From positions 1 to 52,204 of the forward strand of contig JAFGQW010000368.1 of assembly GCA_016935485.1 (NCBI GenBank): a DNA stretch of 52,204 nt, read 5' to 3'. Position numbers and translations under genes: made by a program. Origin of the DNA: Planctomycetota bacterium. Lineage in GTDB: Bacteria; Planctomycetota; JAFGQW01. This document shows positions 1-51,478 of this stretch, one piece after another. Under the pieces are notes generated by a model. The model did not search any database and had not been told where the DNA came from. It saw only the letters and a program-made list of their open reading frames with translations. Positions within the stretch are counted from its first letter, which is position 1. Every line of letters starts with the position of its first letter.

Positions 1-175
1 ACGCCCCGCGCGTGCACTTCACGCGCGCCACGCGCACTCGCACCGCTCGTCATCGTGCTCGTGCTCGTGCTCGCTCTTGTCTGCGAGAAAGGGGGTCAGA
101 CCCCGTTCCGAAGCGGAACGGCGTCAGACCCCAGTCGGCCTCCCCGCGACCGCGACCCGCACGCTCTCGCGCACC
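1..175. repeat. Composite intergenic repeat module, copy L1
   Basis: Non-coding stretch running up to the stop codon of the MFS gene. It holds a (GTGCTC)3 hexamer run at 55-72 and a full 41-nt copy of palindrome A at 92-132 (arms GGGGTCAGACCCCGTTCCG and CGGAACGGCGTCAGACCCC around AAG). The tail AGTCGGCCTC(C)CCGCG also follows the same palindrome in other copies. It begins outside the window, so its full length is unknown. The small ORFs called here are GC-driven and match nothing. Confidence 0.8.
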
Positions 176-6316: not shown

Positions 6317-6512
6317 GGCGCCTCCGAAACGCAGCCGGCCCGAGGCCGAAACACCACTGCCGTTCCTGCAGAACGAGCATCTTACCATGCTCGACCCCGC
6401 GGGCGCACCCCGCGGACGCAGCCCGCCCGCGCCACCCGAGCGCGCGCTTTCCGCGCGCGTCACCCGCACCCGCACGTCTCTCCTCGTGCTCGTGCTCGTG
6501 CTCGCGGCCCCC

Positions 6513-6584
6513 TGCAACTTCTGGCGCCTGACCCCAGGAAATTGCGCCGTGCAAGTTCTTGGCGCCTGACCCCAGGAAGTTGCA
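6513..6584. repeat. Two tandem copies of palindrome B
   Basis: Each copy has the form TGCAACTTCTGG-CGCCTGACC-CCAGGAAGTTGCA, an inverted repeat with arms of about 12 bp and one bulge. The first copy ends ATTGC rather than GTTGCA and the second begins TGCAAGTTCTT, so both are slightly degenerate. Single copies occur at 10299-10332 and 11661-11694. Confidence 0.8.
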
Positions 6585-6624
6585 CGCGTGCTCGATGTCG
6601 TGCTCGCTCCTCTCTTCCCGAGCG

Positions 6625-6665
6625 GGGGTCAGACCCCGTTCCGAAGCGGAACGGCGTCAGACCCC
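6625..6665. repeat. Palindrome A, full copy
   Basis: A 41-nt imperfect palindrome with 19-nt arms (GGGGTCAGACCCCGTTCCG / CGGAACGGCGTCAGACCCC), two mismatched pairs and loop AAG. It is identical over its length to the copy at 92-132. Confidence 0.85.
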
Positions 6666-6785
6666 AGTCGGCCTCACCGCGCCCGTCACCCGCACGCGCA
6701 CCCCGCCCTGGTTGACCGCCACTGGCTGTGGTAGGAAGTTCACCCGTCGCGCAAACACCGCCCGATCCCCGGAGCCCGTCGATCC

Positions 6786-8369
6786 ATGCGTACTCCTCAC
6801 CCTGTGCTCCTCGCCGCCGTCGTCCTGCTCCTCGCCGCCGCAACGGCCCCGATCGCCGCCGGCGAGAGCGACATCCTGGTGCTCACCTCCGCCGAGCTCG
6901 AACCGGGGCTCGCCCGCTGGAAGAAGCACCGTGAGGCACAAGGCCATCGGGTCTCGGTGGCGCTCCTCGCACACGCCGTGGCTTCCGACGCAGCAAGGCG
7001 CACGCAGGAAACGCTGCTCGAGCGCATCCGCAAGGAACGCCCCCGCGTGGTGCTGATCGCCGGCAACGTCGCGCATGTGCCCGCCTTCGCGTTCACGTCA
7101 GCCAGGCTCGGCAAGACCTGCGAGTCCGACCAGCCCTGGGGTCTGCCGGATCCGGCAACCGGGATGCCGGCGCTCCAGGTCGGCCGCATTCCGGCCGCCG
7201 ACCCCCCCGCGCTCGAGGCAGCGCTCGCCAAGGTGATCCGCTACGAGACGACGTTCACCCCGGGCGAGGCGCGGAACACGATCCACTTCCTGGGCAGCCC
7301 CGCCGGCTTCGGCCCGGCCGTGGACGCGACGATCGAGGCCGTTGCCACGCGTCTGCTCGCGCGCGAGCTCGACCAGCACTACCACCTCGAGGTCCTGTAC
7401 GCCTCGCCCTCGAGCCCCTTCTTCCTGCCGCAAGCGGAGTTCCCCGCGCGCACCCGCGCCGCCTTCGAGGCCGGGCCGCTGCTGGTCGTCTTCGCCGGCC
7501 ACGGCAATGCGCGCAGCTTCGCGCACATCCGGCACCGCGGCATCTCGCGCTACTTCGGTGTGGAGGATACCGCCGGCCTCCGCTGCCGGAGCCATTCCCT
7601 TTTCTTCTCGATCACCTGCCTGACCGGCGACTTCGAGCACGCCGACCGGCCCGGCCTGTGCGCCCAGCTGATGCTCGAGCCCGGGGGGCCGGCCGCCACC
7701 TTCGGCTCCTCCGAGATCTCCGAGCCGCTCGCCAACCTCCTGATCGACCAGGCGCTCCTGGCGCAAGTCGCCAACGCCCGCCATCCCACGCTGGGCGACG
7801 CCCTCGCTGCGCTGCGCGCAGACTTCCAGGAACGGACCAGCTCGATCGGCAGCCTCGTGGACCGCTGGATGCAGGGCAAGACCGACGAGGCCGCGCTGAA
7901 GGAGCACCACCAGCACCTCTACAACCTCTTCGGCGATCCCGCCATGCGGCTTCGCTTCCCGCGCCAGAACCTCGAGCTCGCGGCGCGTCGCGAGGGCGCG
8001 GCGCTGGTCCTGGAGGGAACAAGCCCGACCGTCAGGGAAGGCACCGCACTGATTCGCTACGAAGTCGATCGCGGCAAGCTCATGGGCCGGCTCGAGCCCC
8101 ACGCGGACAAGCCGCCCGCCGAGGCCGCACGCATCCTCCGCAAGAACCACGAGATCGCCTCGAACAAGACGCTCTTCCGCCACGAGGTGCCCATCCGGAA
8201 CGGCACCTTCCGCCTCGCGCTCGACCATGCGGCGGCCACTCCCCGCCGGATCGCGGGCCGCCCCCAGTGGGAGTTCTTCTTTCGCGTCTACGCCTGGAAC
8301 GAGCACGAGGACGCGGTCGGTTCGCTCCGGTACGAACCTGCCGACGAACCGAAGCCCCCGGCGCAGTAA
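6786..8369 (+). CDS. Secreted C25 (gingipain-type) cysteine peptidase
   Basis: A 527-residue protein with a signal peptide (MRTPHPVLLAAVVLLLAAAT) followed directly by a caspase-like C25 peptidase domain: DILVLTSAELEPGLARWKKH at its start, RPRVVLIAGNVAHVPAF, LPALQVGRIPA-type strand, then the catalytic pair His239 in VFAGHGNARS and Cys278 in SITCLTGDFE. The domain ends near residue 380 (LYNLFGDPAMRLRFP), the usual end of the C25 fold. The last ~145 residues are a beta-rich domain like the Ig-like extension of gingipains. Unlike gingipains there is no long N-terminal propeptide and no obvious type IX secretion C-terminal domain. It is convergent with the next gene across a strong hairpin. Proteolysis of extracellular protein is likely; the P1 specificity is unknown. 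Confidence 0.85.
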   Translation: MRTPHPVLLAAVVLLLAAATAPIAAGESDILVLTSAELEPGLARWKKHREAQGHRVSVALLAHAVASDAARRTQETLLERIRKERPRVVLIAGNVAHVPAFAFTSARLGKTCESDQPWGLPDPATGMPALQVGRIPAADPPALEAALAKVIRYETTFTPGEARNTIHFLGSPAGFGPAVDATIEAVATRLLARELDQHYHLEVLYASPSSPFFLPQAEFPARTRAAFEAGPLLVVFAGHGNARSFAHIRHRGISRYFGVEDTAGLRCRSHSLFFSITCLTGDFEHADRPGLCAQLMLEPGGPAATFGSSEISEPLANLLIDQALLAQVANARHPTLGDALAALRADFQERTSSIGSLVDRWMQGKTDEAALKEHHQHLYNLFGDPAMRLRFPRQNLELAARREGAALVLEGTSPTVREGTALIRYEVDRGKLMGRLEPHADKPPAEAARILRKNHEIASNKTLFRHEVPIRNGTFRLALDHAAATPRRIAGRPQWEFFFRVYAWNEHEDAVGSLRYEPADEPKPPAQ

Positions 8370-10199: not shown

Positions 10200-10560
10200 C
10201 CCCTGCGCGCGCCATCCGCGCGCGACACGCTCGCCCGCACGCGCACGTCTCGTCTCGTGCTCTGCTCGTGCTGACTTCGCCTACGCAGCCGCGGCCGCTG
10301 CAACTTCTGGCGCCTGACCCCAGAGAGCTGCACGCACCCGAACACAGGGTCAGACCCCGTTCCGAAGCGGAACGGCGTCAGACCCCAGCCGTCACCCCGC
10401 GCGCGACACGCTCGCCCGCACGCGCACGTCTCTTCTCGTGCTCGTGCTCGTGCTCGTGCTCGACTTCTTCCTCCTCCTCCTCTTCTTCTCTTCTTCGTGT
10501 TCTTCGTCTTCTCTTCATGTGCTTCGTGCTTAACACCCCCGCGCCGACCCCGTCACCCCC
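10200..10560. repeat. Composite intergenic repeat module, copy L3
   Basis: This is the main content of the 811-nt gap between the divergent propeller and HAD genes. It contains GCGCGCGCCATCCGCGCGCG, palindrome B at 10299-10332, palindrome A at 10346-10386 (first G changed to A), a (GTGCTC)4 run at 10438-10461, a pyrimidine-rich TTC/CTC tract, and the TTCGTG...GTTAACACC unit followed by CGCGCCGACCCCGTCA. The part before 10200 shows no recognisable gene. Confidence 0.85.
10346..10386. repeat. Palindrome A copy
   Basis: Same 41-nt palindrome as at 92-132 and 6625-6665, except that the outermost G is A (AGGGTCAGACCCC). It is followed by AGCCGTCACCCCGCG rather than AGTCGGCCTC. Confidence 0.8.
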
Positions 10561-10661
10561 CCGGTTCCTCCGCGACTTCCCCCCTTGCCCCTGGCGCCAC
10601 CTCCGGCTAAACGGAAGTTCCCCGCCCCGGGGGAACCTGGCCCGGTCGTGAGCCGCGCTCC

Positions 10662-11411
10662 ATGATCATCGAGAACATCAGGACGATCCTCTTCGACGCG
10701 GGCTTCACCCTCATCCGCATCTCGCCCTCCCTGGGCGAAGTCTACGCCCGCGTGGCCGCGCAGCTCGGCGCGCCGTTTTCTGCGGAGCGCTTCCAGGAAG
10801 TGGGCATCCGGGTCTGGAACCGGGAGCGCTCGCCGCTTCACGCCCCGTCGCTGGAAAGCTCCGACGCGATCGAGCGCCGCTTCTGGTGGGACTACAACCG
10901 GATCATCGTCCGCGAGCTCGAACGCGAGGGTCTTCGCGTCGATTTCGAGCCGTGGTTCGAGACCCTCTTCGAGATCTTCGGCCAGCCAGAGACCTGGGCG
11001 CCGCTCGACGGGGCCGCCCGCACGCTCGGAGAACTCAACCGGCGCGGCTACAGGCTCGGCGTCGTGAGCAACTGGGACTCGCGCCTCCAGCGCGTCCTGG
11101 ACGGGCTTGACCTCACGCGCCACTTTCGGATGGTGCTCACGAGCGCCCAGGCCGGCTACCGGAAGCCGAGCCCGCGGATCTTCGCGCAGGCGCTCGGCCG
11201 GATGGATGCGTCGGCCGCGGAGAGCCTCCACGTGGGCGACTCCGAGGAGGACGACGTGGGTGGCGCGCTGGCCGCGGGACTCCAGGCCATCCGGCTCAAG
11301 CCCGGCCGCCGCCTTGCCGGACGCGCCGTCACGTCCGCCGCCTCTCACGTGATCGGCGCCCTGCCCGAACTGCTGGACCTCCTCGGGGCGCCGGGCTCGC
11401 GCACCCGCTGA
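10662..11411 (+). CDS. HAD-superfamily hydrolase (HDHD3/YjjG-like)
   Basis: A 249-residue soluble phosphatase-type protein. Motif I is LFDAGFTLIRI (nucleophile Asp), motif II VVSNWDSRL, motif III lysine in AGYRKPSPRIF, motif IV GDSEEDDVGGA. An alpha-helical C1 cap lies between motifs I and II, as in HDHD3 and YjjG. The second Asp of the usual DxDxT is replaced (DAGFT), which also occurs in this subgroup (DAVGT) and implies weaker or altered phosphatase chemistry. Substrate unknown. The gene lies between two repeat modules and its final codons (GSRTR) run into the L4 module. Galactokinase converges on it; a link to sugar phosphates is only a guess. Confidence 0.85.
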   Translation: MIIENIRTILFDAGFTLIRISPSLGEVYARVAAQLGAPFSAERFQEVGIRVWNRERSPLHAPSLESSDAIERRFWWDYNRIIVRELEREGLRVDFEPWFETLFEIFGQPETWAPLDGAARTLGELNRRGYRLGVVSNWDSRLQRVLDGLDLTRHFRMVLTSAQAGYRKPSPRIFAQALGRMDASAAESLHVGDSEEDDVGGALAAGLQAIRLKPGRRLAGRAVTSAASHVIGALPELLDLLGAPGSRTR

Positions 11412-11840
11412 CCCGCACCCGCACGCGCACGCATCACCGGGAGCGGGGTCAGACCCCAGTCGGCCTCCCCGCGGGCGCAGCTCGCCCGGGCCACCCGAGC
11501 GCGCGCCTTTCGCGCGCGTCACCCGCACCCCGCGGGCGCAATCCGCCCGCGCCACGCAGCGCGCGCCCTCCGCGCGCGTCACCCGCACCCGCACGCGCAC
11601 GTCTCTTCTCGTGCTCGTGCTCGTGCTCGTGCTCGTCTTCGCCTACGCAGCCGCGGCCGCTGCAACTTCTGGCGCCTGACCCCAGAGAGTTGCACGCGCA
11701 CGCTCACGCGCCACGCTCACGCACACCCGCCCCGTCGTGCTCGTGCTCGTGCTCGTCTTCTTCTCTCTTCCTCTTCTTCGTGTTCTTCGTCTTCCCTTCG
11801 TGTGCTTCGTGTTTAACACCACCGCGCTGACCCCGTCAGC
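11412..11840. repeat. Composite intergenic repeat module, copy L4
   Basis: It fills the 401-nt gap between convergent HAD and galK genes and overlaps the end of galK. In order: a collapsed palindrome A (11445-11457), AGTCGGCCTCCCCGCG, two GCGCGC palindromic segments, (GTGCTC)4 at 11611-11634, palindrome B (11661-11694), (GTGCTC)3 at 11737-11754, then the TTCGTGTTCTTCGTCTTC unit ending GTTTAACACCACCGCGC. The 61 nt at 11637-11697 match 10275-10335 with one mismatch. Confidence 0.88.
11445..11457. repeat. Collapsed palindrome A (deletion derivative)
   Basis: Only GGGGTCAGACCCC remains, followed at once by AGTCGGCCTCCCCGCG, which follows the second arm in full copies. This is what deletion between the two GTCAGACCCC direct repeats inside the palindrome would leave. 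Confidence 0.7.
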
Positions 11841-13021
11841 TCCCCCACCGACGCGCCCGCCCCCGCCACCACCTCCAGGAACGTCGCTTCGCGGCCGCGC
11901 GCCGCCCGGTAGCCCGCGGCCACCTGCTCCCGGAACCGCTCCACGGCATCGCGCTCGAGCAGCGTCACCGTAGCCCCGCCGAACCCGCCCCCCGTGATGC
12001 GCGATCCGAACACGCCGTCGACCCCGCACGCCAGCTCCACCAGCGTGTCGATCTCGGCGCAGCTCACCTCGTAGTCGTCGCGAAGGCTCTCGTGCGACTC
12101 CCGGAGCAGCCGGCCCAGCCACGCCGCGTCCCCGGCCTCGAGCGCCGACACCGCGGCAAGAACGCGCACGTTCTCCCGCACTACGTGGCGCGCTCGCCGG
12201 TACAGCACCGGCTCGAGCTCGGAGCGCACCCCCTCGAGCAGGCCCTCGTCCACCGAGCGGAGCGCGCGAAGCCCCGGCAGCTCGAGCGCCCCGAGTGCTC
12301 GCAGCGCCGCCTCGCACTGCGCCACGCGCTCGTTGTAGGCCGTGGCGGCGAGCTCGTGCTTCACCCCGCTCCACGTGAGCAGCAGCACGGCGCCGACCGG
12401 CGGCCCGGGCACCGGCCGGAAACTCCCGTCGGCGCAGTCGATCAGGATCGGCCCCTCCGGGCGGCCGTGGAGCGCCACGACGAAGTCCATCGGGCCGGAA
12501 CGTACCCCGGCATAGCGGTGCTCCGCCAGCCGCGCCGCGTGGGCGAGCTCCGCCGGTTCCAGCGCGAGCCCGCCCGCGTCGGCAAGCGCGAGCCCCCACG
12601 CCACGAGCAGGGCCGCCGACGAGCTCAGGCCAGCGCCGGTCGGCACCTCGCCCTGAACCACCGCGTCGATACCGCGGAGCTCGTGGCCAACCCCGCGCAG
12701 AACCGCCGCGAGCCCGTGCAGGTAGCGGCTCCAGTGGCCGGGGGGCCCTGCCGGACCGACCTTCAGATCAAGCGCGACCTCCTCGCCGAGGTCGAGCGAG
12801 ACGGCCCGCGCCAGCGCGCTCTCCGACGCGCGAAACGCGATCCAGATGTCGCGGTCCAGCGCGATCGGCAGCACGTAGCCGAGCTGATAGTCGGTGTGCT
12901 CGCCGATCAGGTTCACGCGCCCGGGAGCCCGCGCGAACCGGAGCGGCCCGGGACCGAATCGCTCGGCGTGGACGCGGCGAAGGCGGGCAGCACGCGCCTG
13001 GCGTGCCTCGCGATCGGTCAT
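11813..13021 (-). CDS. galK: Galactokinase
   Basis: A 402-residue GHMP-family kinase that phosphorylates galactose at C1 in the Leloir pathway. The galactokinase signature GRVNLIGEHTDY is near residue 30, the GHMP ATP-binding motif PTGAGLSSSAAL near 120, and the third motif RITGGGFGGATV near 345. The length is normal. The start is the ATG with GAGGTGAG about 10 nt upstream; the track ORF extends 113 codons too far. The last codons and the TAA stop come from repeat module L4 (GCGCGGTGGTGTTTAACAC), so the last ~8 residues (TGSARWC) are repeat-derived. No galT or galE is in the window. The beta-helix gene lies 95 nt upstream on the same strand. Confidence 0.93.
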   Translation of the reverse strand: MTDREARQARAARLRRVHAERFGPGPLRFARAPGRVNLIGEHTDYQLGYVLPIALDRDIWIAFRASESALARAVSLDLGEEVALDLKVGPAGPPGHWSRYLHGLAAVLRGVGHELRGIDAVVQGEVPTGAGLSSSAALLVAWGLALADAGGLALEPAELAHAARLAEHRYAGVRSGPMDFVVALHGRPEGPILIDCADGSFRPVPGPPVGAVLLLTWSGVKHELAATAYNERVAQCEAALRALGALELPGLRALRSVDEGLLEGVRSELEPVLYRRARHVVRENVRVLAAVSALEAGDAAWLGRLLRESHESLRDDYEVSCAEIDTLVELACGVDGVFGSRITGGGFGGATVTLLERDAVERFREQVAAGYRAARGREATFLEVVAGAGASVGELTGSARWC

Positions 13022-48807: not shown

Positions 48808-51044
48808 CCGCGCCCAGGCGCGCCTGCGCCGCTTGCCCGGCCCGCGCCGCCCCGCCACGGGGCGCGCCCGGCGTGGACCCGGACCGCGCCGACCACGTCG
48901 TGGCGCTCGCCGGCAATCCGAACACCGGCAAGAGCACCGTGTTCAACGCGCTCACCGGCCTGCGCCAGCACACCGGAAACTGGCCCGGAAAGACCGTCAC
49001 CCGCGCCGAGGGCGCGTTCGTTCACGGGACCAGCAGCTTCAAGCTGGTCGATCTGCCCGGCACGTACTCGCTGCTCGCCGCCAGTCCCGACGAGGAGGTC
49101 GCGCGGGACTTTCTCCTCTTCGGGCGGCCCGACGTGACCGTCATCGTGGTGGACGCCACCCGGCTCGAGCGCAACCTCAATCTCGTCCTCCAGGTCCTCG
49201 AGATCACCGACCGCGCCGTGGTGTGTCTGAACCTCGTCGACGAGGCGGCCCGCCGCGGCCTCGCGGTCGACCCCGAGCAGCTCGCGGCGCGGCTCGGCGT
49301 GCCGGTCGTCCCCACCGCCGCGCGGTACCGCCGCGGCATCGACCGGCTGATCGAGACCATCGCCGGCGTCGCCTCCCGGGAGATCCCGTGCGCCCCGCAC
49401 CGGCTCGGCCGGCAGTCCGCCGCGCTCGACGAGGCGGTCGACACGCTCCGGGCCGACGTCGAGCAGACGTTTCCCGGTCTGCCCAACGCGCGCTGGGTCG
49501 CGCTGAGGCTGCTGGACGGCGACGCCCGGATGACGGAAGCGGTGCGCACCGGCGAGCTCGCCGCGCTGGCGGAGCCGCCGTCCCCGAGCGCCGGCCCGCC
49601 GGCCGCGCTGCCGCTCGCGCGCCCCCCCGGTGACGCCGACGTGCTGGAAGCGGCATCGGCGCTCCGCTGGGAGCTCGGCCCCGATTTTCACGAGCGGCTC
49701 GTGGAAGCCCTGTTCACGGAGGCCGCCGCCATTGCGCGTCCGGTGGTCCGCGAGGACCCGCGTGGTCCGCGCGACGGCCTGGACCGCAAGCTCGACCGCT
49801 GGCTCACCGGCCGCACGACGGGATTGCCGATCATGGTCGGCCTGCTTGCCGTCGTGCTCTGGCTGACGATCGAGGGCGCCAACGTCCCCTCGGCGGCGCT
49901 GAGCGCGCTGCTGCTCGACACGATCCACCCGCTGCTCCGGGAGGGCGGCGCCGCCGCGGGGCTTCCCGCCTGGCTCGGCGGTCTGCTGTTCGACGGCATG
50001 TATCTCGCCACGGCCTGGGTGGTGAGTGTGATGCTGCCGCCCATGGCGATCTTCTTCCCGCTGTTCACGCTGCTCGAGGATTTCGGCTACCTGCCGCGCG
50101 TCGCGTTCAATCTCGACCGCATGTTCCAGCGCGTGGGCGGCCACGGCAAGCAGGCGCTCAGCATGTGCATGGGGCTCGGCTGCAACGCCGCCGGCGTGAT
50201 CGCGACGCGGATCATCGACAGCCCGCGGGAACGGCTCATCGCGATCCTCACCAACAACTTCGCGCTCTGCAACGGGCGCTGGCCGACCCAGATCCTGATC
50301 GCGACCATCTTCATCGGCGCGCTCGTGCCCTCCTACCTGGCAGGCCCGGCCGCCGCGGCCGCGGTGGTGCTCGTAGCGCTGGCGGGCATGGGGCTCACCT
50401 TCCTGGTGTCCTGGGGACTGTCACGCACCGTGCTCCGCGGCGAGGCGTCGGCGTTCTACCTGGAGCTCCCTCCCTACCGCCCGCCGCGCCTCCTCCAGAC
50501 GCTCTACACCTCGCTCATCGACCGGACCGTGTTCGTGCTGTGGCGGGCGGTCGTCTTCGCGCTGCCGGCCGGCGCTGTCATCTGGCTGATCGGCAACGTC
50601 TCCCTCGGCGGCGAGGCGATCGCCGCCCATCTCATTCACGGTTTCGATCCGATCGGCCTGTTGATCGGGCTCAACGGCGTGATCCTGCTCGCCTACGTGG
50701 TGGCGATTCCCGCCAACGAGATCGTCATCCCGACGGTGCTGATGCTGACGGTGGTGGCGGCGGGGCTGCCGGGCGTCGGCCAGGAGGCGGGCGTCATGTT
50801 CGAGCTGGAATCGGCGGCCGATACCGGCGCACTGCTCCGGGCGAGCGGCTGGACCGTGCTCACCGCGGTGAACCTGATGCTCTTCAGCCTGGTTCACAAT
50901 CCGTGCTCGACCACGCTCTACACCATCTACAAGGAAACGCGCAGCGCCCGCTGGACCGCCGTCGCCGCTCTGCTCCCGCTCGCCCTCGGCGTGGCGCTCT
51001 GCTTTACCGTGGCGCAGGTCTGGCGGATCTTCGCCGGCAGCTGA
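48804..51044 (+). CDS. feoB: Ferrous iron transporter FeoB
   Basis: A 746-residue inner-membrane iron(II) transporter with an N-terminal GTPase: G1 GNPNTGKST (from residue 37), G3 DLPGTYSL, G4 NLVDEA, then a guanine-dissociation-inhibitor-like helical region to ~330 and about ten membrane segments with the two Gate motifs (CMGLGCNAAGV, and FALCNGRWPTQI preceded by TNN). A short Cys-rich leader (RRACAACPAR) precedes the G domain. The start overlaps the upstream DtxR-FeoA stop (ATGA), so FeoA-like domains are supplied by that gene. No separate feoA or feoC is present. Repeat module L6 begins just after the stop. Confidence 0.95.
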   Translation: MTAPRRACAACPARAAPPRGAPGVDPDRADHVVALAGNPNTGKSTVFNALTGLRQHTGNWPGKTVTRAEGAFVHGTSSFKLVDLPGTYSLLAASPDEEVARDFLLFGRPDVTVIVVDATRLERNLNLVLQVLEITDRAVVCLNLVDEAARRGLAVDPEQLAARLGVPVVPTAARYRRGIDRLIETIAGVASREIPCAPHRLGRQSAALDEAVDTLRADVEQTFPGLPNARWVALRLLDGDARMTEAVRTGELAALAEPPSPSAGPPAALPLARPPGDADVLEAASALRWELGPDFHERLVEALFTEAAAIARPVVREDPRGPRDGLDRKLDRWLTGRTTGLPIMVGLLAVVLWLTIEGANVPSAALSALLLDTIHPLLREGGAAAGLPAWLGGLLFDGMYLATAWVVSVMLPPMAIFFPLFTLLEDFGYLPRVAFNLDRMFQRVGGHGKQALSMCMGLGCNAAGVIATRIIDSPRERLIAILTNNFALCNGRWPTQILIATIFIGALVPSYLAGPAAAAAVVLVALAGMGLTFLVSWGLSRTVLRGEASAFYLELPPYRPPRLLQTLYTSLIDRTVFVLWRAVVFALPAGAVIWLIGNVSLGGEAIAAHLIHGFDPIGLLIGLNGVILLAYVVAIPANEIVIPTVLMLTVVAAGLPGVGQEAGVMFELESAADTGALLRASGWTVLTAVNLMLFSLVHNPCSTTLYTIYKETRSARWTAVAALLPLALGVALCFTVAQVWRIFAGS

Positions 51045-51215
51045 CGGCGGGCCGGGGCGGGGTGGTCGCGGATGCGGGCGGTGACGGGGTCGGCGCGGTG
51101 GTGTTCAACACGAAGGACACGAAGGCAAGACGAAGAACACGAAGAAGAGGAAAAGGGAAGAAGAGGAAGAAGTCGGGGACGAGTACGAGGATGACGACGA
51201 AGAGGAGCGACGACC

Positions 51216-51440
51216 GGGGTCTGACCCCGGGCCCGGGTGCGGGTGCGGGTGCGGGTCGCGCGCGCGAAACGCGCGCGCTCGGGTGGCGCGGGCGGACGGC
51301 GCCCGCGGTGACGACCGGGGTCTGACGCCGTTCCGCTCCGGAACGGGGTCTGACCCCGGGCCCGGGTGCGGGTGCGGGTGCGGGTCGCGCGCGCGGAATG
51401 CGCGCGCTCGGGTGGCGCGGGCGGACGGCGCCCGCGGGGC
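51216..51440. repeat. Tandem ~129-nt duplication inside module L6
   Basis: GGGGTCTGACCCC followed by GGGCCCGGGTGCGGGTGCGG occurs at 51216 and again at 51345. About 92 nt after each copy match almost base for base (GAAACGC versus GGAATGC is the clearest change). The full palindrome A at 51317-51357 bridges the two. Confidence 0.8.
51317..51357. repeat. Palindrome A, full copy, reversed
   Basis: The reverse complement of the 41-nt palindrome at 6625, except that the centre reads CTC rather than CTT. It is followed by GGGCCCGGG. Confidence 0.8.
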
Positions 51441-51478
51441 GCCCGCGGAACGTCGCCTTGCCAATGGCCCGGGCGATT

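Follow-up and report, generated by a model that had tools for sequence, protein, structure and literature searches.

A REPIN-like repeat family with full and short copies, and its probable link to a Y1 transposase, in an uncultured Planctomycetota genome

Palindrome A and its surroundings in the window

The window, which is the whole stretch of 52,204 nucleotides analysed here, is contig C46 of a 4.89-Mb assembly of 405 contigs. Its intergenic regions, adjacent to genes for an MFS protein, a C25 peptidase, a HAD hydrolase, a GHMP kinase, and FeoB, harbor a 41-nt palindrome, palindrome A (full copy or doublet), and short copies that are represented by a single 13-nt core, GGGGTCAGACCCC. A preliminary description of the sequence had listed full copies at positions 92, 6625, 10346, and 51317 and short copies at 11445 and 51216; these positions were all confirmed, and the six copies (four full, two short) are intergenic without exception. 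They are given below together with the related features.

92-132, + strand: full doublet (palindrome A), downstream of the MFS gene (179-1453, - strand)
6513-6545, - strand: sister palindrome with the tag GGGGTCAG as in palindrome A, the core GGGGTCAGGCGCC, and TTGCA arms
6550-6583, - strand: sister palindrome of the GGGGTCAGGCGCC type
6625-6665, + strand: full doublet, flanked by an ORF bounded at 6554 and the peptidase C25 gene starting at 6786
10299-10331, - strand: sister palindrome of the GGGGTCAGGCGCC type
10346-10386, + strand: full doublet with A instead of G as first base, upstream of the HAD hydrolase gene (10662-11411, + strand)
11445-11457, + strand: single core located between the HAD gene and the GHMP kinase gene and followed by AGTCGGCCTCCCCGCG, the right flank of the doublets; interpreted as a collapsed doublet
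11661-11693, - strand: sister palindrome of the GGGGTCAGGCGCC type
51212-51308, no strand assigned: unit 1 of a tandem duplication (129 bp, family D6), containing a single core; identity to unit 2, 97%
51216-51228, - strand: single core followed on its right by GGTCGTC; interpreted as the collapsed counterpart of the full doublet at 51317-51357
51317-51357, - strand: inverted full doublet in which the loop reads GGAGC rather than GAAGC, downstream of feoB (end at 51044)
51341-51437, no strand assigned: unit 2 of the tandem duplication (family D6), in which the full doublet has its left core

As described before, each full copy contains two direct repeats GTCAGACCCC, and the flank AGTCGGCCTCCCCGCG downstream of the core at 11445 is shared with the copy at 92. 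The direct repeats are 28 bp apart. The core is nearly palindromic, and the two REPs of palindrome A consequently also form 10-bp direct repeats, which distinguishes them from the REPINs of Pseudomonas fluorescens SBW25. The short copy at 51216 and the left core of the full copy, located at 51345, belong to the two units of the 129-bp tandem duplication, whose sequences have 97% identity across 97 bp. Matches to the 13-mer with two mismatches or fewer number 24 in the 52-kb window compared with 3.0 +/- 1.8 in shuffled sequences.

Palindrome A shares with REPs and REPINs that it is an imperfect palindrome with two inverted units around a spacer, that it forms a hairpin, and that it is short, present in high copy number, and, for the six copies of the window, extragenic. 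Folding of the 41-mer as single-stranded DNA gives a single hairpin that is interrupted by two mismatches, A/A and C/C, both of which are fixed; the latter is caused by a nearly fixed C of the right-hand core. The folding energy is -16.7 kcal/mol compared with -6.4 kcal/mol in shuffles (z = -5.6). Two stem pairs vary on both sides (GTGCCG/CGGCAC and GTTGCG/CGCAAC), a result reached in 6 of 500 shuffles, and the pairing of the co-varying positions is lost when the partners are slid against each other.

The sister core GGGGTCAGGCGCC occurs 94 times in the genome, including the four copies of the window, and also forms a tandem array of five cores with an exact spacing of 40 bp (G000, C196:21285-21457). 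The intergenic regions at 6393-6700, 10216-10562, 11417-11864, and 51056-51447 are mosaics of further repeats, pieces of which are common between the loci; their components include GCGGGCGC...GCCCGC and GCGCGCGC..CGCGCG hairpins, CACCCGCACCCGCAC runs, TCGTGC runs, and TTCTTC-rich stretches.

Copy classes in the genome and the 28-bp difference

The 13-mer is present in 147 exact copies in the assembly, and a reversed control pattern in none; these counts refer to a draft whose contigs often terminate in the repeats concerned. The 146 cores that were collected with their flanks and classified fall into 41 tight doublets (41-43 nt), 13 longer-spacer doublets (53-75 nt), and 92 single cores. Among the 92 single cores, 25 carry the right flank of the doublets, [AG]GTCG, 28 have TTGC arms, many of these being located within 46-bp tandem units, and 10 have palindromic arms of at least 5 bases. 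The remaining 29 form an 'other' class, which includes cores truncated at contig ends, second cores of doublets, and cores whose partner has decayed or is out of range. The earlier designation of single copies as collapsed doublets is appropriate for the 25 with the right flank of the doublets and not for the singles as one class (67/92 are of other types), and the term is therefore restricted here to these 25. Doublets were also found with right flanks other than AGTCG.

If short copies are formed by collapse, they should retain the GGGG of the left core and the downstream flank of the right core. The two cores of a doublet can be told apart by their third base, the left one having GGGG and the right one GGCG. 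Cores with GGCG, of which there are 55 in the genome, are almost all paired; those flanked by [AG]GTCG have an upstream partner in 32 of 34 cases, whereas GGGG cores with this flank stand alone in 23 of 24 (32/2 vs 1/23; Fisher p = 8e-13; three exceptions in 58). A full copy on C380 and a short copy on C116 can be aligned over about 90 bp to the left and 65 bp to the right with small differences, the gap comprising exactly 28 bp with its breakpoints inside the direct repeat. In the tandem duplication of the window, the similarity of the 97-bp units at 51345 and 51216 (97%) extends to the left core, and both copies have GGTCGTC on the right. For short copies with the doublets' right flank, the origin by deletion between the two GTCAGACCCC repeats that had been suggested before, with a loss of 28 bp, is strongly supported by the GGCG/GGGG split and the exact 28-bp pairs.

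The direction from full to short is, by parsimony, the simpler reading. When copies were compared by the similarity of their flanks, mixed full/short nearest neighbors were observed 27 times vs 25.6 +/- 4.1 times in permutations (50 copies). Flank similarity does not predict the state of a copy, as would be expected from repeated events; gene conversion between intergenic blocks could also have this effect. In many doublets, the similarity extends past the 41 nt into the flanks, and some copies may therefore have been carried along within larger intergenic blocks.

Another full/short pair, located at contig ends (C105 and C133), is identical over 25 bp to the left and 20 bp to the right. It was considered as one locus in two forms and rejected as such, since the outer flanks diverge and the loci are thus distinct. 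As a separate observation, the L117/L060 alignment contains, downstream of the core, a tandem run of CTTCCTCC / CTCACTCC that is long in the C380 block and much shorter in that of C116.

The Y1 transposase gene on C277 and the distribution of the repeat

Two Y1_Tnp genes are present in the assembly, on C277 and C87. The product of the C277 gene has 285 aa and contains the motifs NHYH, FQ, and YVVLNP; across ten relatives, neither the HUH histidines nor the tyrosine varies. In profile searches, the protein and its relatives matched the E. coli TnpArep structure 4er8 (2.9e-5) and, in the C-terminal part, the DnaA C-terminal domain (2.5e-8). Both Y1 proteins score below the 80-bit cut-off of the NCBIfam model NF047646 for REP-associated tyrosine transposases (77.6 and 64.7). 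By its motifs (NHYH, FQ, and Y...LNP), its length, and its DnaA-like C-terminal domain, the C277 protein can be assigned to TnpA-Y1 subclass 2.1 as described in the literature (PMC6006769), where this subclass is equated with TIRYT and FQ or W[EQ] are given as motif options. In the survey cited, the subclass is the second-largest group of Y1 transposases, and no REP-like sequences were found beside its genes (PMC6006769), unlike the C277 gene, which is flanked by the core of a large doublet family.

Downstream of the C277 gene, three GGGGTCTGACCCC cores follow at a spacing of 46 bp, the first of which contains the TGA stop codon of the transposase gene (L033:7164-7176), and upstream there are GGGGTCAGGCGCC-type copies with GGGGTCAG. 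The gene thus has the core and 46-bp units at its flanks, as is characteristic of REP and REPIN systems; the 41-nt doublet itself is not adjacent to it. The gene is moreover enclosed by a 36-nt inverted repeat, TTGCAGACCCG...GATGGGGTCAG, which ends in GGGGTCAG. This tag fits the motif GGGGWSAS of the terminal inverted repeats (TIR) of TIRYT genes, which are likewise flanked by inverted repeats (PMC3733652), and the corresponding GGGG[AT][CG]A[CG] of subclass 2.1 (PMC6006769). In those relatives within the phylum for which both flanks are available, the gene is mostly surrounded by inverted repeats with GGGGTCA followed by G, C, or A, which is close to GGGGWSAS (PMC3733652); a minority have related repeats or none that are clear. 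The TIRYT motif is accordingly found in the inverted repeats flanking the C277 gene as well as those of many phylum relatives.

In further genomes, picked because they are rich in the 13-mer, Y1_Tnp matches in G052 (L185), G178 (L180), and G004 (L188) have the 13-mer on both sides, with different arms, which suggests that the tag is conserved and the arms change fast. In G002, which has eight cores, no Y1_Tnp match was found. Of 294 phylum genomes, 262 lack the core and a few contain it in abundance; the 13-mer is lacking in the one genome of the same family, and the full palindrome was not detected in 58 other phylum genomes with up to three mismatches. A scan of GTDB r220 with the full palindrome gave one match, on a Gemmatimonadaceae contig, in a set from which near relatives may be missing, and no paper containing the 13-mer was found in the published literature.

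The second Y1 transposase (C87, L034:8087-9106) has a LacI-like C-terminal helix-turn-helix, which scores below the Pfam cut-off, and the palindrome at the flanks of its gene is an unrelated one, built around AAAACGCCCC[AT]GGG followed by CAGTTAC, which agrees with each transposase having its own repeat type.

Known repeat systems and competing explanations

Palindrome A resembles the REPINs of SBW25 (PMC3116915) in its many intergenic copies, in the pair of inverted REPs separated by a spacer that varies in sequence, in the occurrence of singlets beside doublets, in compensatory stem changes, and in the association with a Y1 transposase. It differs from them in its tag GGGGTCAG and in the subclass of the transposase, and the GT[AG]G foot of canonical REPs is absent from the 41-mer and its variants. 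The repeat families of TIRYT genes comprise single, dimeric, and grouped copies, some of them self-complementary (PMC3733652); they are described there as 'moderately abundant', and the copy number found here (147 for the core and 94 for the sister core) appears to be higher. A third type, the CGTC-tagged REPs (PMC3733652), was set aside: CGTC is present in palindrome A, but within the stem and in the right-hand core only, missing from the left core and not unpaired at the stem end, and CGTC REPs are reported without a transposase.

REPINs, the formation of singlets by deletion inside doublets (PMC3116915), and the TIR families of TIRYT genes have been published before. The authors of the SBW25 study already named deletion between two REPs as a source of singlets, citing own cases as unpublished, and the collapse of doublets described here accords with what is known of REP repeats. 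New are the size of the family in one uncultured lineage, the link of a large doublet-and-singlet family to a subclass 2.1 gene by core and tag in one genome, and the almost invariable G/C distinction of the two cores, which exposes the breakpoints and provides a clean marker for how single REPs derive from doublets.

We favor, with a probability of roughly 0.78, the view that palindrome A is a REPIN-like repeat with the C277 transposase as its probable mobilizer and that the right-flanked short copies are doublets that lost 28 bp by pairing of the GTCAGACCCC repeats. The repeat would be a non-autonomous element of two inverted, GGGGTCAG-tagged palindromes with a spacer that is either short or about 35-40 nt long, spread through intergenic regions. 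The C277 protein, a Y1 (HUH) transposase, probably mobilizes the family, a proposal based on the common core and tag. The hairpin between the GTCAGACCCC repeats would form in single-stranded DNA during replication, the most likely setting for the loss, and pairing of the two repeats would remove exactly 28 bp, leaving a short copy with the right flank.

Slippage rather than the transposase is thus considered the likely source of the short form. Cleavage by the transposase at one identical site in each of the two GTCAGACCCC repeats, with removal of the 28-nt single-stranded hairpin and resealing as in IS200/IS605-like elements, would make the short copy an excision scar; this is unlikely, even though the C277 gene retains the HUH and tyrosine motifs, the breakpoints are very regular, and REP doublets of SBW25 are excised asymmetrically with part of one REP left behind (PMC3116915). 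The same product is obtained without any enzyme if 10-bp direct repeats on either side of a hairpin simply anneal, and the SBW25 excisions, as described, do not take place between two direct copies. Moreover, the core and sister repeats also occur in tandem 46-bp and 40-bp arrays of variable copy number, where repeat-to-repeat pairing is apparently at work anyway. The more far-reaching version, in which a subclass 2.1 transposase both spreads the GGGGTCAG doublet and excises precisely within GTCAGACCCC, the singles being a record of these excisions, is rather improbable.

Gene conversion might shuffle full and short cores among intergenic blocks, in which case common flanks would not indicate a change in place. 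The mosaic nature of the intergenic regions and the patchy flank similarity agree with such a process, which would account for the spread of both states but not for the first origin of the exact 28-bp difference, and we likewise assign it a low likelihood. The reverse order, in which the short form is the older one and the doublet was formed when 28 nt were inserted next to a single core, either repeatedly or once with subsequent spread, draws on the excess of single cores over doublets and on the fact that the sequence as such gives no direction. It requires, however, that many blocks received an identical insertion at one and the same position, the state being independent of flank similarity, and doublets with right flanks other than AGTCG and with longer spacers are expected if the doublet is the spreading unit; we regard it as very doubtful. 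A role of the palindromes as ordinary terminators of transcription or as structured RNAs, without a tie to transposition, is hardly credible: they are intergenic hairpins, some near stop codons, but the window copies are not followed by a T-run, Rfam gave no match above the gathering score in the window, the core is missing from most phylum genomes and abundant in few, and it adjoins Y1 transposase genes in four genomes.
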